Source of the DNA: Acidobacteriota bacterium
GTDB lineage: Bacteria; Acidobacteriota; Thermoanaerobaculia; Multivoradales; Multivoraceae
Assembly (NCBI GenBank): GCA_011523565.1
Contig: WTGL01000027.1
Coordinates: 661 to 52,063, forward strand
Length of the DNA: 51,403 nucleotides
Reading direction: 5' to 3'
The notes below the pieces were generated by a model that ran no database searches, was not told the origin of the DNA, and worked only from the letters and a program-made list of their open reading frames with translations. Of the stretch, positions 10,098 through 17,396 are shown piece by piece. A program made the translations under genes and the position numbers. Each line of letters starts with the position of its first letter. Within the stretch, counting starts at the first letter, position 1.

Positions 10098-10412
10098 CTA
10101 ATTGACGCGGCCGGACTGGTCCGTCGGGTCGGGGGCCTCCTCGATCACGCCGTGGACTTCCTCGTAGCGCCGCAGGTTCGTGCCCAGGGCGCGGATGATC
10201 CGCTTGAGATGCCCGGGGCTGGTCACGATGCGGGCGCTGACGATGCCCTGAGGTGGAACCACGTTGATGAAGTCGAGGATGAACTCCTCGCGGGTATGGG
10301 TGATGCGCAGCAGGTTGGAGTACGCCCCCTTGAGTTCGGCGTCGCCGATCTTGACGTTGATCGACGAGGACGAATCCAGGTCGCCCTGTTCTTCCTTGGG
10401 TCGCTCGCTCAT
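10098..10412 (-). CDS. DUF3467 family protein
   Basis: Small soluble protein of 104 residues of the DUF3467 family, with no established function. The conserved core runs from INVKIGDAELKGAYSNLLRI through THTREEFILDFINVVPPQGIVSARIVTSPGHLKRIIRAL. Its ATG overlaps the stop of the upstream wzt gene (shared ATGA) and has a GGAGG site 6 bases upstream, so it is translated with the polysaccharide-export genes. No membrane segment or signal peptide is present. That it works with the exporter is inferred only from this coupling. Confidence 0.82.
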   Translation of the reverse strand: MSERPKEEQGDLDSSSSINVKIGDAELKGAYSNLLRITHTREEFILDFINVVPPQGIVSARIVTSPGHLKRIIRALGTNLRRYEEVHGVIEEAPDPTDQSGRVN

Positions 10413-11794
10413 TCCATCCTCCGTGGGTCCCTGGGTACAAGCCAGTCGATCGCCGCTGGTGGCTTGGCGGCTCCGTCGGCGGAGCCGCCGCGGAGCGCCT
10501 CGACCTGCCACTCGTGGTCGGGCAGGTAGAGACCGATGCTTCTGAGCGCCGAACTCTCGGCCACAGTGAACCTGAGCGCCCGGCGGCGGTAATCGTACGC
10601 TCTGCCGTCGCGCGCGTGAACCGCGAGATCGACCGTGTACTCGCCCGGGGCGAGCCGCAGTTCCGGGCAGACCAGGCGTACCCGCACCGGACCGCGCAGC
10701 AGCCGCGGCTCGTAGCCGGCGAGATCGGTGTTCGTGCCCCAGCAGTCGACACCGCGGGGCGTCTTGACGCCGACCCCGAAGACGAAGTCGTCGAGGTCTT
10801 CCCGCGGCTCCACCTGGAGCTCGAACGCGACCGCCTCTCCGCAGTGCACGTGATAGCGCTCCTCGGACGAGTTCCCGGCCAGCAGGCGCGCGCCGACGAT
10901 CCGCGCCTGGCCGGAGCCCCAGCGCAGGATCTCCTCCTCCGCGGCAGGCGCCGTCACGGCGGCCTCCTCCTCCTCTTCCGGCTGCGATTCCTGCTCCTGT
11001 TGGACGTCGAGCGCCCGGCGACGGTCGTGGGCCTCGCCCTCGCGCTTCGCCACGTCCTCGAGATAGGCGTCGATCACGCGCCGCGGCGCCCCGATCGACC
11101 GGGTACGCCCCTGATCCAGCCAGACCGCCCGGTCGCAGAGTTCCTCGACCAGGCCCATCGAGTGGCTGACGAAGAGCAGCGTGCCGCCCCCGGCAAGGTG
11201 CTCCTCGATCCGCGTGATACAGCGGTGGACGAACTCCTCGTCGCCGACCGCCAGCACTTCGTCGACCAGGAGAATCTCGGGGTCGGTATGGATGGCGACC
11301 GAGAAGCCGAGGCGGACGTACATGCCCGAGGAGTAGTTCTTGATCGGCTCTTCGATGAAGTCGGCAAGGCCCGCGAACTCGACGATGTCGTCGTAGCGCT
11401 CCTCGATCCGGCGCCGGCTCAGCCCGAGCAGCGCACCGTTGATGAAGATGTTCTCCCGACCCGAGATCTCGGGGTGGAAGCCCGCGCCCAGCTCGATCAG
11501 GGCGGCCACGCGGCCGTTCACCGCGAGTTCGCCGGCAGTGGGCCGCAACAGGCCGGCGACCAGCTTGATCAGCGTCGACTTGCCGGAACCGTTGCCGCCG
11601 ATGACGCCGACGGCCTCGCCCGCGGCGACCTCGAAACTGACGTCTTCGAGAGCCTCGACCGCGTCGGCCGCGCCCAGTCCGCTGGTCAGGCTGCCTTCGA
11701 GCAGCGCGCTCTTCAGAGTCCGCAGGCGGTAGCCGCCGGCCTCGCGCCGGTAGCGTTTACCCACGCCGCGGAGGACGACTGCCGGCCCGGGCAA
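10409..11794 (-). CDS. wzt: Polysaccharide ABC exporter ATPase with C-terminal glycan-binding domain (Wzt type)
   Basis: Cytoplasmic ATPase of an ABC-2 exporter for O-antigen, capsule or teichoic-acid-like glycans. It has Walker A GGNGSGKST (66-74), signature YSSGM (154-158) and Walker B ILLVDE followed by VLAVGDEEF (174-187). After the ATPase comes an acidic linker (about 255-288) and a beta-rich C-terminal domain (about 290-430) that matches the Wzt_C module, which in characterised systems binds the modified end of the glycan before export. The start is a TTG one base after the wzm stop. A companion permease gene lies immediately upstream, and a kinase/glycosidase-like fusion 9 bases before that. 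Confidence 0.92.
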   Translation of the reverse strand: MPGPAVVLRGVGKRYRREAGGYRLRTLKSALLEGSLTSGLGAADAVEALEDVSFEVAAGEAVGVIGGNGSGKSTLIKLVAGLLRPTAGELAVNGRVAALIELGAGFHPEISGRENIFINGALLGLSRRRIEERYDDIVEFAGLADFIEEPIKNYSSGMYVRLGFSVAIHTDPEILLVDEVLAVGDEEFVHRCITRIEEHLAGGGTLLFVSHSMGLVEELCDRAVWLDQGRTRSIGAPRRVIDAYLEDVAKREGEAHDRRRALDVQQEQESQPEEEEEAAVTAPAAEEEILRWGSGQARIVGARLLAGNSSEERYHVHCGEAVAFELQVEPREDLDDFVFGVGVKTPRGVDCWGTNTDLAGYEPRLLRGPVRVRLVCPELRLAPGEYTVDLAVHARDGRAYDYRRRALRFTVAESSALRSIGLYLPDHEWQVEALRGGSADGAAKPPAAIDWLVPRDPRRME

Positions 11795-11795
11795 C

Positions 11796-12593
11796 TCAGA
11801 CCGCCTCGGCCAGGGTGTCGCTCAGGCGGGAGAACAGGCCGGCGCCCAAGGCCCACGACGCGGCGGCGATCGCCGCCATGACGAGCCAGTCCCCGGTCAC
11901 CGGCAGGCGCCCGAAGAAGAGGAGATCCTGGATCGCGACCGTGAAGGACGTGAACGGGTTCAACTGCACCACCTGGGCCAACCCGGGAGGGATGTCGCTC
12001 AGCGTGTAGATGATCGGCGCCATGAAGAAGGCCAGCACGAGGACGTTGCCGAGCAGGTCCCGAACGTCCTTGAAGTGGACGTTCACCGCGGACAGCGCGA
12101 AGACGAGGCCCGCCACCATGACCACCTCGATCAGCAGGACGACGGGCAACAGCACGAAGGTCCAGCCGGCGATCGGATAGCCGAGCAGCCGGCTCAGGAT
12201 CAGGGCCACGGCCACGATCGGAAGCGCGAGCAGGAAGTGAACGAGGTTCGCCACCACCGCCACCGCCGGCAGCACCTCGACCGGAAACACCGCCTTGCGG
12301 ATCAGCGCGCTGTTGCCGGTCAGGGACGAGCAGCCCTCGAGCAGGGACGTGGACACCCAGATCCAGGGAAAGAGACCCGTCACCAGGAAGACGCCGTAAG
12401 GCTCCGCCGAGACCACGTCGCGAGGCAGGATCTGGCTGAACACGAACGAGTAGACGGCGAGCAGCAGCAGCGGGTTGATGAGGGACCACAGGAAGCCCAG
12501 CACGCTGCCCCGGTAGCGCGCGCGCAGTTCCCGCAACACCAGCGTCCAGACCAGGCCGCGGTAGCGAACCAGACATCGAGCCACTTCGATCAT
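11796..12593 (-). CDS. wzm: Polysaccharide ABC exporter permease (Wzm type)
   Basis: Inner-membrane subunit of the ABC-2 exporter. The 265 residues contain the typical N-terminal LRELRARYRGSVLGFLW amphipathic segment and six hydrophobic stretches (about 30-53, 64-80, 103-140, 143-172, 178-198, 235-255). LNPFTSFTVAIQDLLFFGRLP matches the re-entrant region near the fifth and sixth helices. It pairs with the Wzt ATPase one base downstream. Substrate identity cannot be deduced, because no glycosyltransferases are next to it. Confidence 0.92.
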   Translation of the reverse strand: MIEVARCLVRYRGLVWTLVLRELRARYRGSVLGFLWSLINPLLLLAVYSFVFSQILPRDVVSAEPYGVFLVTGLFPWIWVSTSLLEGCSSLTGNSALIRKAVFPVEVLPAVAVVANLVHFLLALPIVAVALILSRLLGYPIAGWTFVLLPVVLLIEVVMVAGLVFALSAVNVHFKDVRDLLGNVLVLAFFMAPIIYTLSDIPPGLAQVVQLNPFTSFTVAIQDLLFFGRLPVTGDWLVMAAIAAASWALGAGLFSRLSDTLAEAV

Positions 12594-12602
12594 CGCCCGA
12601 AG

Positions 12603-14780
12603 TCATCTTACGTCCGGCTCTTGGCGGCGCTCGACCTCGAGGTAGACCGGCGCCGGTCCGAGCGGAACGTCGCCGGAACCCGCTTCCAGCCCGTCGCGGT
12701 CCCATGCCCTGCGGACGCGGACGGGGGGCCAAAAGGAGCGGCCGCGGCGGTCGGTCGCCCAGAGCACCTGGATCTCCCGACCGGGCCACAACGCCCGGTA
12801 GCCGCGCACTCCCGGAGGCAGCCTCAGGCGTTCGACGCCGGCGCCGGCAAGCACGTGCCGGAGCTGACGGAGGGCAAGGTAGGCCGGCCGCCGGCGCAGG
12901 CCGCCGCCCCGCGGATCGATCAGCCCGTAGCCGGCCGCCGCCAACTGCCACCAGAAGACACGCTCGGCGAGACCGGTCCCCAGGGCCTCGAGGCAGTAGC
13001 GGACGAGGTAGCTGGCCTGGGTGTCCTCGTCGACGGCGACATCGCGGCCGGCGGGGGCGTGGGGCCCTTCCCGAAGCGGCCAGTTGAACTCGGTGACCCA
13101 GCTTCGATCCGACGCGCAGTCGGGCGCCCTGCGGGCCAGGGCGCGCAGCACCGCCAGCTTGCCGGCGAGGTCGAAACCGAGCTGGCGGTTCTCGGGCGCC
13201 CCCCGCCGGTCGACGTAGAGCTGACTCGCCAGGATGTCGAACCGGTGCTCCGGCAACCCCGAGTGCACGAGTCCGGCTGTCGCGTGCGGCTCGAAGTCGA
13301 TGACCGCGGGCGCGAGAACGCACCCGTCCCGGTCCGCTGCCCCCACGGCTCTCGCGCCGGCAGCCAGGAGATTCCAGTACTCGTCCGGCCGCCACACCCC
13401 CCACTTGCTCCGGTTGGGCGCCTGACCGATGAGGAAGGTCTGCCCGAACGGCAACAGAGTGGAGACAGCCTCCTCCACGCGCCGTCGCCAGAGTCCGCCG
13501 TCCCGCACGAGCGACCGGTCCTGGCTCAACTGGAACACGAGCTCGACCGGCCTCCTTTCCGCCCCGCCGAGGATCTCCGCCAGTTCCAGCAGGTCGCCGT
13601 GGAGATCCCGCCAGAGATGGAACCGCAGCAGCACGTTGTCGACCCCGAGATCGTCGATCGCCTCGACCAGGTCGCCAACCGGCGCCGAGTCCGGACCGAC
13701 CGCCACGCCGAGGCCGCTGAACGGGATCCTCTCCACGAACCGATCCACCCGGCGCCGAACGCGCTTCGCCTCGAGAATCGATGCGAACAGCGGTCCGGCG
13801 GCACGAAGGAGCGGACGAGCATGATGGGCCGCGTCGCGCAGACGGACCCCGAGGCGCTGGCTACGGGTCGCGTGCTGGTGAGGCTGGTCGGTGAGCGGAT
13901 CCCACACCGCCCGTTCCTGAGCCTTCGCGGCCGTGTCCGCGCCCGGGACGTGAGGGTGGGCGCGCCGGCGCGGCAGCAGCAGGTCGGCGAAGCGCCTCAG
14001 TCCCCGCCGGGCGCCGTGCTTGGACCGGATCCTGAGACGGAAACCGTGGTGGTAGAGGTCGAACCAGAGCTGCAGAAACCGGGGCAGTCCGCCGTCGCGG
14101 TAGCCGCGGAGGTACTCGGCGCGGTCCGCCTCGCGCACCACCGGCATCCTGCTGAGATCCCGCAGGCGCTGGCTCATGGACAGCCGTCTCCGGAACCGGA
14201 CGCGGTTCAGATCCACCAGGTACAGCTCGGCATCCGTGGTCGGTCCCGACAGGAGCACGTTGCCGGAGGTCAGATCCCGGAACCAGACGCCGTGGCGGTG
14301 CAGTTGCGCGGCCAGGGCGCCGACCCGCCGCAGCAGGACCGATCCGTCGATTTCGGGGAAACGGGCCGCGCCTTGGCCGGAGTTCAGGGCCCTGAGCACG
14401 TAGCGCAACTCCAGGGCCTCCGGCACCCGCCGGCAGACGAACCAGGCGGGGTCCTCCACGGTCGTCGACTCCGCGTAGAACAGCGGCTCCGGCGTCGGGA
14501 TGCCGAGACCCCGTAGCCGTCGCGCCGCATGAAAGCTCAGGCGCGCCCGACTGCCCCGCCGGCGGCGGCGAAGCCTCGCCCGCAGATCGTCGTGACGGAA
14601 CTGCTTGACCACCACGGCGACATCGTCCCCGTCACGGCGCCGCCACGTTCCTTCATACAGGTAACTCCGGCCCCAGTGCAGACTGCGGCCGGCATTCGCC
14701 GGATCGAGAAGGCGGCGAAGAGCCGCTTCGAAGCCGGCATCCAGGTCGCCCGTGGCCACCGGGTCGACGGCGCCGGTCAC
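12603..14780 (-). CDS. Lipopolysaccharide-kinase-like domain fused to a glycoside-hydrolase-like domain
   Basis: A 725-residue two-domain protein. Residues 30-260 form a protein-kinase-like fold of the WaaP/InaA lipopolysaccharide-kinase group: lysine in VVVKQF (Lys59), catalytic loop RDLTSGNVLL (Asp169) and metal site LYLVDLNRVRF (Asp190). After a basic linker, residues 350-640 look like a TIM-barrel glycosidase: alternating strands such as GLGVAVG, NVLLRFHLW, VELVFQLSQ and FDILASQLYV, with WVTEFNW (Glu564) resembling a nucleophile strand. A beta-rich tail follows. No signal peptide is seen. GTG at 14780 is used; a CTG at 14828 overlaps the rng stop and has a better ribosome-binding site. 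It lies 9 bases before wzm, so a role in modifying an exported glycan or lipid is likely but unproven. Confidence 0.7.
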   Translation of the reverse strand: MTGAVDPVATGDLDAGFEAALRRLLDPANAGRSLHWGRSYLYEGTWRRRDGDDVAVVVKQFRHDDLRARLRRRRRGSRARLSFHAARRLRGLGIPTPEPLFYAESTTVEDPAWFVCRRVPEALELRYVLRALNSGQGAARFPEIDGSVLLRRVGALAAQLHRHGVWFRDLTSGNVLLSGPTTDAELYLVDLNRVRFRRRLSMSQRLRDLSRMPVVREADRAEYLRGYRDGGLPRFLQLWFDLYHHGFRLRIRSKHGARRGLRRFADLLLPRRRAHPHVPGADTAAKAQERAVWDPLTDQPHQHATRSQRLGVRLRDAAHHARPLLRAAGPLFASILEAKRVRRRVDRFVERIPFSGLGVAVGPDSAPVGDLVEAIDDLGVDNVLLRFHLWRDLHGDLLELAEILGGAERRPVELVFQLSQDRSLVRDGGLWRRRVEEAVSTLLPFGQTFLIGQAPNRSKWGVWRPDEYWNLLAAGARAVGAADRDGCVLAPAVIDFEPHATAGLVHSGLPEHRFDILASQLYVDRRGAPENRQLGFDLAGKLAVLRALARRAPDCASDRSWVTEFNWPLREGPHAPAGRDVAVDEDTQASYLVRYCLEALGTGLAERVFWWQLAAAGYGLIDPRGGGLRRRPAYLALRQLRHVLAGAGVERLRLPPGVRGYRALWPGREIQVLWATDRRGRSFWPPVRVRRAWDRDGLEAGSGDVPLGPAPVYLEVERRQEPDVR

Positions 14781-14824
14781 GCCGTCGAACTCGAACCGGA
14801 CTTCCGGCCCGTCGGCCTCGGAGT

Positions 14825-16243
14825 TCAGGCCCGCTCCCCCGCCAGTTCGGCCACGACGAAGCGCTCGCGATGCAACTCCGGGTCCGCCTGGACGATGATC
14901 GGCGCTTCGAAGGCCCCCTGCAGGCCGTCGAGCACCGCCGACTCGGAACCGCGCAGGCCCTCCAGGACCTCGGGGTGGACCCGCACCGCTACTTGACGGA
15001 CTCCGCCCCGGGCCCGGGCCAGACAGGTCCGCCGCAACTCCAGGCAGATCGTGGCAACCGACTTGATGCGGCCCGCCCCCTGACAGTAGGGGCAGTCCGC
15101 GGTCAGTAACTGCTCCAGATTCGCGTGGCTGCGCCGGCGGGTCAACTGGACCAGGCCGAATTCCGAGATGTCGAGCACCCGGTGTCTGGCGCGATCCCTC
15201 TTCAACTCCGTCTCCAGGCGGACGAACACCCGCTCGCGGTGGTCCTCGCGCTCCATGTCGATCAGATCGATCACCAGGATGCCGGAAAGATCGCGCAGCC
15301 GGATCTGGCGCACCGCCTCCACGACCGCCTCCAGGTTCGTCCTGAGAATCGTCTCTTCGAAGTCCGCCGAGCCCACGTCGCGGCCGGTGTTCACATCGAT
15401 CGCGACCAGCGCCTCCGTCTGGTCGATCACGAGAAAGCCGCCGGACGGGAGCGGCGCGCGGTTCCGCAGCGCGGCTTCCACCTGGTCATCTATCCGGTAG
15501 CGCTCGAACAGACCTCTCCGGGTCCGCTCCACCCGGTCGAGGAGTTCCGGCTGCACCCGCTCGATGTACTCCGCGATCCGCCGGTAGGCGTCGGCTCCGT
15601 CGACCAGCAGCGCCCCGAAGTCGGCCGAGAAGAGGTCGCGGATCACACGGTGGTCCAACTCGTCCTCGCGGTGGAGCAGAGCGGGCGCGCGCACGGCCGC
15701 CGCCCGCTCCTCGAGCCGGCGCCAGACCGCCAGCAGCGCCGCGTAGTCCGCCCGGATCTGTTCCTCGGCCGCGCCGGTCGCCGCGGTGCGTACGATGCAT
15801 CCCGGCGCGGGAGAGTCGTCGTCGCATGCGGCCGATGCCAGTTGCTTCAGGCGATCCCGTTCTCCGGCGTCGAGGATGCGCTTCGAGACGCCCACACGGT
15901 CCGCGGTCGGCGTCAGCACCAGGTAGCGGCCCGGCAGCGTGATCTCGGTGGTGATGCGCGCTCCTTTGCCCGCCAGCCCATCCTTGGTGACCTGGACGAT
16001 CAGATCCTGGCCGCGGCGCGGCATCGTGTCCTCGCTCCAGAGGTAGCCGTCACGAGCGAGCCCCAGGTCGACGAAAGCCGCTCTCATGCCGGGTAGTACG
16101 CGGCGCACCCGGCCCTTGTACAGGTTGCCGACCTGGCCGCGGCGGCCGCGGCGTTCGATCAGCAGTTCGGCCAACCGGCCGGACTCGACGACGGCGACCC
16201 GCGTCTGGAGCGGATCGCTCTCCACCAGAAGCTCTGTGTCCAT
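14825..16243 (-). CDS. rng: Ribonuclease G/E family endoribonuclease
   Basis: Single-strand-specific endoribonuclease that matures rRNA and degrades mRNA. From the ATG at 16241-16243 the protein has 472 residues. An S1 domain begins at NLYKGRVRRVLPGMRAAFVDLG, the catalytic metal ligands are in VAIDVNTGR (Asp283) and VIDLIDM (Asp326), and the zinc-link CPYC is at 384-387. RNase E's long C-terminal scaffold is absent, so RNase G is the better match. The frame stays open to a TTG at 16300 inside the end of rodA, but family homologues begin near the ATG. It follows mreBCD-mrdA-rodA, a neighbourhood common for rng in many phyla. Confidence 0.94.
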   Translation of the reverse strand: MDTELLVESDPLQTRVAVVESGRLAELLIERRGRRGQVGNLYKGRVRRVLPGMRAAFVDLGLARDGYLWSEDTMPRRGQDLIVQVTKDGLAGKGARITTEITLPGRYLVLTPTADRVGVSKRILDAGERDRLKQLASAACDDDSPAPGCIVRTAATGAAEEQIRADYAALLAVWRRLEERAAAVRAPALLHREDELDHRVIRDLFSADFGALLVDGADAYRRIAEYIERVQPELLDRVERTRRGLFERYRIDDQVEAALRNRAPLPSGGFLVIDQTEALVAIDVNTGRDVGSADFEETILRTNLEAVVEAVRQIRLRDLSGILVIDLIDMEREDHRERVFVRLETELKRDRARHRVLDISEFGLVQLTRRRSHANLEQLLTADCPYCQGAGRIKSVATICLELRRTCLARARGGVRQVAVRVHPEVLEGLRGSESAVLDGLQGAFEAPIIVQADPELHRERFVVAELAGERA

Positions 16244-16286
16244 ACGACGTGGAAGACCGACTTGTCCGCGCGGGTGCCGGGGCGGA

Positions 16287-17396
16287 TCAGATGTTGACAA
16301 ACCGCCGCAGGTCGAGGCCGATCATCAGCCCCGTGGCCGCGCAGCAGAAGAGCATGAAGGAGCCGCCGTAGCTCAGGAAGGGCAGCGGTATGCCGGTGAT
16401 CGGCAGCAGTCCGACCACCATCGCCGTATTGTAGAGAACGTAGCCGGCGAGAAAGGCCAGCAGCCCGACCACCAGCAGCAGACCGGCCGGATCCCGAGCC
16501 GCCAGCGCGATGCGGACGCCGTTTCCCAGGTAGAGGAGGAACAGCGCCATCACGAGGGTGACGCCGGCGAATCCGTACTCCTCGGCCAGGACCGCGAACA
16601 CGAAGTCCGTGTGCGGCGTCGGCAGGAAGCGCAGCTTCGACTGCGTCCCTTCGCCGTAGCCCTTGCCCAGGGCCTGGCCCGATCCGACCGCGATCCGGCT
16701 CTGACGCACCTGGTAGCCCGATCCCAGCGGATCCGCCTGGGGCTGGAAGTAGCTCAGGACACGCTCCTTCTGGTAGTCCTGCAGAGCGAACACCCACAGT
16801 CCGGCCACGAGCGCCAGAGCCGCCCCAACCGCGACGAGCGCTGAACGCAGACTGACGCCGGTGACCGCCGTCATCGCGGCGAGGGCGGGCACGAACATGA
16901 GGGCGCCGCCCAGGTCCGGCTGGCGGGCGATCAGGAGCACGGGAAGCGCGCAGATGGCTACCGTCACCCACAGGCCGCCGCGCGGTGGAACCGGAGCCTG
17001 GGAATCCGCCAGGCGCCGCGCCAGCAGCAGCACCGTCGCGATCTTGCAGAAATCGGAAGGCTGACCGCCGAGACCGCCGATCCCGATCCAACTGCGGGCA
17101 CCACCTGCCTCGTGGCCGAAGAACGTCACCGCCGCCAGCGCGAGGACGGCCACCACGTAGATCCAGATGGCGTACCGAAGCAGAACGGTGTAGTCGACGA
17201 GGGCCGCGATGAGCATCACCACGACACCCAGGGCGATCCACAGCGACTGGCGCGAGACATAGCCGGCCGTCAGTTCGGCGCTCGAGATCAGCACCAGACC
17301 CACCATCGACAGGGCCAGCGCCGAGCCGGCGAGCTGCCACGAGACGGTCCGCAGCCGCCGCACCTGGGACCAGGGATCAGGTCTGGGGAGAAGCAC
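16287..17396 (-). CDS. rodA: Rod-shape SEDS peptidoglycan glycosyltransferase
   Basis: Integral membrane polymerase of peptidoglycan glycan strands in the elongasome. In 369 residues there are about ten hydrophobic segments, the catalytic-loop motif ARQPDLGGALMFVPAL with the conserved Asp, the large periplasmic loop, and the signature GIPLPFLSYGGSFML near the C-terminus. The GTG start overlaps the end of mrdA by 20 bases, so polymerase and transpeptidase are translationally coupled. The PBP2 partner is immediately upstream, which favours RodA over FtsW. Confidence 0.97.
   Translation of the reverse strand: MLLPRPDPWSQVRRLRTVSWQLAGSALALSMVGLVLISSAELTAGYVSRQSLWIALGVVVMLIAALVDYTVLLRYAIWIYVVAVLALAAVTFFGHEAGGARSWIGIGGLGGQPSDFCKIATVLLLARRLADSQAPVPPRGGLWVTVAICALPVLLIARQPDLGGALMFVPALAAMTAVTGVSLRSALVAVGAALALVAGLWVFALQDYQKERVLSYFQPQADPLGSGYQVRQSRIAVGSGQALGKGYGEGTQSKLRFLPTPHTDFVFAVLAEEYGFAGVTLVMALFLLYLGNGVRIALAARDPAGLLLVVGLLAFLAGYVLYNTAMVVGLLPITGIPLPFLSYGGSFMLFCCAATGLMIGLDLRRFVNI

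Follow-up and report, generated by a model that had tools for sequence, protein, structure and literature searches.

A WaaP-type kinase and a predicted GH39-like barrel, fused or paired in three phyla and possibly acting on the lipopolysaccharide inner core

Introduction

What is the use of a single protein that joins a kinase of the lipopolysaccharide (LPS) type to a barrel resembling a glycosidase? The question is raised by a gene in a 51,403-nucleotide stretch of DNA from an Acidobacteriota bacterium (contig WTGL01000027.1, positions 661 to 52,063 of the forward strand), hereafter the window, whose numbering is used throughout. A first reading made from the letters alone (the sequence-only reading) had described such a fusion at 12603-14828, and had proposed that it phosphorylates and trims a lipid-linked chain before export by the adjacent Wzm/Wzt transporter. 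In many bacteria the outer membrane depends vitally on phosphorylation of the LPS inner core, a task ascribed to kinases that are regarded as acting alone. We find that the conserved feature is the pairing of the barrel with the kinase, as a fusion, as separate genes or as a reversed fusion, and this pairing is well supported. That a partner tracks the kinase in these three ways, across three phyla, implies either a second activity that has gone unrecognised or a subunit that presents the substrate. The pair thus points to a hitherto unknown step in the building of the bacterial surface.

The two halves of the fusion

The features of the gene, all on the minus strand, are as follows; residues are counted from the GTG codon at 14780, which as a start gives 725 amino acids.

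12603-14828, minus: kinase-barrel fusion gene (start CTG 14828 or GTG 14780; 741 or 725 amino acids)
13971-14828, minus: WaaP/Kdo-type (PF06293) kinase module, residues 1-270 from 14780 (Pfam, fold, alignment)
14604-14606, minus: Lys59, ATP-binding lysine (alignment)
14274-14276, minus: Asp169, catalytic-loop Asp, FRD being the HRD equivalent (alignment)
14211-14213, minus: Asp190 of the DLN motif, the DFG equivalent (alignment)
13740-13970, minus: linker, residues 271-347, with the conserved WDxxxDQP motif at 13881-13904 (alignment; in Campylobacterota a hydrophobic stretch follows the motif)
12849-13739, minus: GH39-like TIM barrel, residues 348-644 (predicted model, structural and profile alignment)
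13623-13625, minus: Arg386, end of barrel strand beta-2, presumed nucleophile network (model and alignment)
13419-13421, minus: Ala454, where GH39 has its acid/base Glu (profile alignments)
13401-13415, minus: NRSKW motif (456-460) after beta-4, conserved in all architectures (alignment)
13290-13298, minus: DFE motif (495-497) after beta-5 (alignment)
13080-13094, minus: TEFNW motif (563-567), whose Glu564 takes the position of the GH39 nucleophile (profile alignments)
12606-12848, minus: C-terminal beta domain, residues 645-725 (model; GH39 and PslG alignments extend to residue 717)

PF06293 matches residues 59-213 with an E-value of 4e-11 (43 bits, for a Pfam curated cut-off of 21.3), and the predicted kinase half resembles WaaP (6dfl_A; Foldseek E 4.5e-10, TMt 0.64). 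The kinase fold announced for the first half is thus recovered by structure prediction. The three residues on which that assignment had been based, Lys59, Asp169 and Asp190, are all present and, like Asn174, each conserved in 30 of 30 aligned fusions; the 31st row, L048, whose frame contains no kinase, was left out. The likeness to the heptose I kinase WaaP / RfaP (PF06293; 6dfl) covers the kinase fold, the ATP lysine, the catalytic Asp and the metal Asp of the DLN/DLH motif. The differences are that the kinase is here joined to or paired with a barrel, that its substrate is a prediction, and that WaaP itself binds acyl-ACP (acyl carrier protein). In the window's genome (completeness 88.7%) the fusion is the single PF06293 kinase.

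The AlphaFold2 model of the fusion, computed from 31 sequences, has a mean predicted local distance difference test (pLDDT) of 87.7 and a predicted template-modelling score (pTM) of 0.83, with eight barrel strands at residues 357-610. Foldseek lists GH30 xylanases as well as WaaP 6dfl for this model. Among the chains pre-ranked by Foldseek, which are those that the VIA-align ranking covers, the top match is GH39 5jvk (Z 30.4, root-mean-square deviation 2.8, 340 aligned; residues 348-717, that is the TIM barrel plus the beta domain), followed by PslG (Z 27.6-27.9; 9g17 Z 27.9, 22% identity in the structural alignment). A profile of 24 C-terminal halves searched against PDB sequences reaches 5jvk at E 0.022 and, weakly, the GH39 xylosidase 2bfg at E 0.41, and hhalign of the barrel family profile against ten GH39 sequences from Acidobacteriota genomes gives 84.7% probability (E 6.6e-6). 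By family search the C-terminal half of the fusion matches no Pfam family up to E 10, PF01229 (Glyco_hydro_39) included, and PF01229 finds no match in the window's own genome. More generally the barrel has no family match in Pfam and NCBIfam searches, and its PDB sequence matches are only weak. Adenylate-kinase matches returned by a single C-terminal half in the Pfam/PDB search are weak and were rejected as chance; profile and structure are needed for the assignment.

The glycosidase-like barrel that the sequence-only reading proposed to superpose on known folds is therefore a predicted TIM barrel of the GH39 type. Its closest relatives appear, from the model, to be GH39 and PslG, and it would derive from a GH39-like glycosidase. 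With GH39 glycosidases (5jvk; 2bfg, a beta-xylosidase) it shares the TIM barrel plus beta domain and the TExN nucleophile strand, but the beta-4 Glu of their WNEPN is replaced by Ala, Thr or Ser and PF01229 does not match. We know of no tie between PslG and a kinase. PslG of Pseudomonas aeruginosa (9g17, 4zn2, 5bx9), a glycosidase in a polysaccharide locus, has the same fold but carries both Glu165 and Glu276, of which the barrel lacks the first (PMC11912335). A link to the Kdo (3-deoxy-D-manno-octulosonic acid) hydrolase of Helicobacter and Francisella was also considered and dropped for want of evidence, homology not having been compared.

The active site of the barrel

Residues were counted over 137 non-redundant barrels (78 kinase-barrel, 54 stand-alone and 5 barrel-kinase), from which L174, a true GH39-like row, is excluded by the score threshold. 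In both profile alignments FxIGQAxN of the barrel family aligns to FEVWN[E/A]PN of GH39, so that Ala454 occupies the place of the GH39 acid/base Glu; the 2bfg chain, which reads FEVWNAPN, is presumably an acid/base mutant. In the same alignments TEFN falls on the GH39 TExN nucleophile strand, which puts Glu564 at the nucleophile position. The segment WVTEFNW, first noticed as resembling the nucleophile strand of a retaining glycosidase, thus keeps this identity. This is not the case for the second, acid/base Glu that was then looked for: position 454 is Ala in 102, Thr in 34 and Ser in 1 of the barrels, and no acidic residue is found at 451-459 in 138 rows (window included). The paired carboxylate, set beforehand as the point on which a glycosidase would fall, is therefore absent at its usual beta-4 place in 137 of 137 relatives. 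A barrel family with the clan GH-A nucleophile but never the acid/base would be a natural test bed for acid-free glycosyl transfer.

Other positions of the site hardly vary. Asn456, Arg457, Trp460, Asp495 and Arg525 are invariant (137/137), Lys541 is present in 136 of 136 barrels with one gap, and position 459 is Lys in 133 and Arg in 4. Position 497 is Glu in 135 and Asp in 2, while position 524 is acidic in 131 and Asn in 6. In clan GH-A enzymes an Arg from beta-2 and a Tyr from beta-6 lie beside the nucleophile. In the barrel, Arg386 and Tyr522 are found in 132 of 132 kinase-barrel and stand-alone rows and Glu564 in the 130 of these where the column is filled; a forced global alignment, itself of low confidence, matches Arg386 with the Arg of RFH in GH39. 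All three residues are lost in the five reversed barrel-kinase fusions. We read Arg386, Tyr522 and Glu564 as a putative nucleophile network kept or lost as a unit, above a common core that may bind anions.

Distribution and pairing with the kinase

Barrel matches occur in 68 of the 72 genomes of the window's order (the window's own counted) and in 2 of 26 genomes from other orders of the class. With the C-terminal half so widely matched, the fusion is not a chance product. The relatives in named genomes (best 80 of 404) belong to Acidobacteriota, mostly Thermoanaerobaculia, and also to Gammaproteobacteria and Campylobacterota. In samples of these groups the profile matches at E 1e-3 in 54 of 298 genomes from Campylobacterota, in 13 of 369 from the gammaproteobacterial class and in 30 of 297 from Acidobacteriota; the weakest of these matches, e.g. 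L174, resemble ordinary GH39-like proteins.

Three architectures are found. The kinase-barrel fusion makes up 75 of the 76 non-redundant barrels of the window's order, the 76th being cut by a contig end, and recurs in two gammaproteobacterial sequences and one further classmate. Stand-alone barrels are those of Campylobacterota, other Acidobacteriota and some Gammaproteobacteria. The five reversed fusions come from four Gammaproteobacteria and one acidobacterium; their model is weak (pLDDT 65.9, 5 sequences), with PslG, GH39 and WaaP as the top three Foldseek matches, then a mixture including unrelated amylase folds. In a quick, unrooted tree with long branches the reversed fusions form one group (SH-aLRT 100), and a gammaproteobacterial kinase-barrel row groups with Campylobacterota, apart from the window's order, so that kinase-barrel fusions stand at two separate places. 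A second kinase family is also found fused: in L184 (8787-10433, minus strand), from Campylobacterota, a 549-amino-acid frame contains the barrel together with a YrbL-type kinase domain (PF10707), and a frame of the same length occurs in a second genome of the Campylobacterota sample. The gammaproteobacterial stand-alone barrels L185-L190 are mostly about 360 amino acids long, without the C-terminal beta domain, and may have another role.

Where the two genes are separate, they occur together. In the sample of 298 Campylobacterota genomes, barrel and partner kinase occur together in 52, the barrel alone in 2, the kinase alone in 1 and neither in 243 (Fisher p 1.5e-54, shared ancestry ignored). 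The kinase was counted at E below 1e-80, which leaves uncounted two weaker matches (E 7e-7 and 4e-4) in further genomes. The two genes are at most 8.7 kb apart in all 47 pairs that share a contig; in the other 5 pairs each gene is on a contig of its own. In other Acidobacteriota the kinase gene lies directly upstream of the stand-alone barrel in 8 of 8 cases. The kinase profile applied to these acidobacterial pairs and to the gammaproteobacterial flanks included L125, L126, L127, L129, L130 and L170-L173 as rows, whose matches hold by construction. Independent checks are given by Pfam (L125, L127, L129, L130, and L193, which is the same protein as L172) and by the A5 profile, built from 12 Campylobacterota kinases of which 9 come from genomes among the 298.

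Gene neighbourhoods and membrane topology

Neighbours were counted by tblastn, since gene calling misses genes in this 69% GC DNA. Outside the window's order the pair lies mostly in LPS-core loci with heptosyltransferases. All 18 Campylobacterota neighbourhoods contain GT9 heptosyltransferases, with hldE in 10, hldD in 11 and gmhA in 7, and Pfam on one of them identifies GT9, PfkB/CTP-transferase, O-antigen ligase and a sulfatase-type transferase. In other Acidobacteriota GT9 is near the barrel in 8 of 9 cases, and Pfam on one locus gives O-antigen ligase, methyltransferase and PfkB kinase. The reversed fusion of L244 adjoins GT9, an ABC (ATP-binding cassette) exporter and a lipid A acyltransferase; GT9 is nearby in 2 of the 4 Gammaproteobacteria with reversed fusions. 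The window's genome itself has WaaA (the Kdo transferase) and one GT9, which is present in 12 of 12 relatives.

Two gene arrangements were noted in passing. In L236-L243, from other Acidobacteriota, a row of GT4 transferase, kinase, barrel and class I methyltransferase is found near a second row of GT9, O-antigen ligase, PHP-domain and HldE-like genes (by Pfam for L239 only). In L193 (13851-16085, plus strand) the LPS-core locus of a reversed fusion also encodes a 745-amino-acid protein with two kinase stretches (PF06293 and Pkinase/WaaY-like).

Campylobacterota proteins carry a strongly hydrophobic stretch after the WDxxSDQP motif: the median of the best 19-residue Kyte-Doolittle mean is 2.21 in 25 Campylobacterota rows, versus 0.68 in 78 acidobacterial rows. 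In the rows shown, basic residues mostly outnumber acidic ones on both sides. The stretch probably anchors the protein in the inner membrane, perhaps as a re-entrant hairpin, though in this group it might also be a single span that places the barrel in the periplasm. The window's fusion has no such stretch. Its kinase and barrel should thus share the cytoplasm, where WaaP of P. aeruginosa acts in a cytoplasmic LPS-core pathway that we liken to the proposed site of the fusion (PMC6147952).

Proposed function and alternatives

We tentatively favour, at somewhat less than an even chance, an LPS inner-core modification pair in which the barrel acts on an anionic core sugar and does so with no classical acid/base. 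Together the kinase and the partner dedicated to it would modify the LPS inner core, or some other core glycan that is lipid-linked, at the cytoplasmic face of the inner membrane, presumably in all groups. The WaaP-type half would phosphorylate a core sugar, and the barrel would bind the same anionic acceptor through its invariant cationic mouth (Arg457, Lys459, Arg525 and Lys541, with Asn456, Asp495 and Glu497). The acid/base Glu is lost, and in the main clade Glu564 is kept with its presumed Arg386/Tyr522 network, a combination for which we propose acid-free cleavage or transfer. The barrel would then most likely cleave or transfer a glycosyl whose leaving group needs no protonation, e.g. 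a sugar phosphate, and would be no ordinary retaining hydrolase. The firmest ground is the pairing and its LPS setting. That this chemistry takes place at a phosphorylated or otherwise anionic core sugar is suggested by three features together: a mouth that would bind anions, a nucleophile that lacks its acid/base, and the kinase as partner. Plant myrosinase (GH1) is a retaining clan GH-A enzyme without the acid/base Glu, acting on a substrate with a good leaving group, but it differs from the barrel in family, pathway and substrate. A bolder form of the proposal makes the barrel a biosynthetic LPS-core enzyme, either a retaining transferase or a sugar-phosphate lyase, that uses its nucleophile without acid/base and is coupled across three phyla to a kinase making or marking its phosphorylated substrate; we hold this to be unlikely.

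Several observations weigh against the modification pair. In the window's order the fusion sits between rng and, in the genus, wzm-wzt, and among 40 loci from Thermoanaerobaculia that span at least 19 kb, none was found with an LPS-core gene near it. The six gammaproteobacterial stand-alone barrels have no kinase in their fetched flanks and no LPS-core gene nearby, and the classmate G083 has a similar kinase on another contig. The charged mouth is a candidate deduced from strand positions and alignment. Lastly, the absence of Glu564, Arg386 and Tyr522 from the five reversed fusions suggests that the barrel keeps some use even where the nucleophile is lost.

The barrel could accordingly be a pseudoenzyme, that is a glycan-binding adaptor which presents the LPS core to the kinase and catalyses nothing itself, much as the amylase fold of CD98hc is dead. 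We consider this possible though on the unlikely side; as a choice between binding only and acid-free chemistry, the adaptor is nearly as likely. Ala, Thr or Ser at the acid/base place in every barrel agrees with it, and so does the retention of NRx[KR]W, DFE, Arg525 and Lys541, as in a binding site, by the reversed fusions. But the main clade keeps Glu564, Arg386 and Tyr522 in every filled row, and their joint loss in the other clade suggests a working unit.

Alternatively the barrel could be an active retaining glycosidase or transglycosidase trimming the core glycan, its acid/base displaced to Glu497 (after beta-5) or Asp524 (after beta-6). The near-constant acidity of both positions and the Glu564 of the main clade fit with this. 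However, all five reversed fusions retain Glu497 although their nucleophile is gone, so that this residue is not simply the partner of the nucleophile; to our knowledge there is no precedent for a beta-5 acid/base in clan GH-A. We therefore rank this reading low, as quite unlikely.

The modification pair also has to be compared with the export model of the sequence-only reading, in which phosphorylation and trimming of a lipid-linked chain precede its export by Wzm/Wzt and provide the C-terminal domain of Wzt with a chain-end signal. The genes flanking the fusion are these.

14825-16300, minus: rng (ribonuclease G), upstream neighbour retained across much of the order (Pfam and neighbour comparison)
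11796-12593, minus: wzm-like ABC-2 permease (Pfam PF01061)
10409-11794, minus: wzt-like ATPase with a Wzt_C domain (Pfam PF00005 and PF14524)

The wzm start does lie 9 bases downstream of the fusion stop codon, as had been said, the Wzt_C domain is present, and wzm is found at most 200 bp downstream of the fusion in 17 of 17 loci of the genus. The survey of this co-occurrence that had been suggested holds within the genus and fails outside it: none of the 55 other loci has wzm within 200 bp, and of the 30 whose flank reaches 8 kb or more, 12 have it inside that distance. Linkage to wzm-wzt is a trait of the genus and is not conserved beyond it. By comparison, rng lies at most 500 bp upstream in all 17 loci of the genus and in 38 of 51 others. 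With the pair in LPS-core loci of other phyla, and with no beta-4 acid/base for trimming, trimming before export finds little support and the model appears improbable. An assembly or frame artefact fusing two genes has practically no chance left: nothing was found in its favour, and it is already refuted by the number of independent assemblies with the same fused frame, in aligned fusions 39-91% identical to that of the window.

The reading frame and its start

The fusion is real, as first described: it is a single frame on the minus strand that recurs across relatives. That it was not known as a described enzyme also agrees with our search, since the literature covered, mostly outside subscription journals, gave no description of it, nor is it described in the WaaP coverage of a review of bifunctional kinases, in the part available (PMC9138534). 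The limits 12603-14828 fit with a start at CTG 14828, although the residue numbers given with them count from 14780. CTG 14828 is probably the likelier of the two starts, because among 19 relatives of the genus the equivalent position is TTG in 14 and CTG in 4. This codon overlaps the rng stop as CTGA (14825-14828), and translational coupling to rng through a rare start codon is likely.

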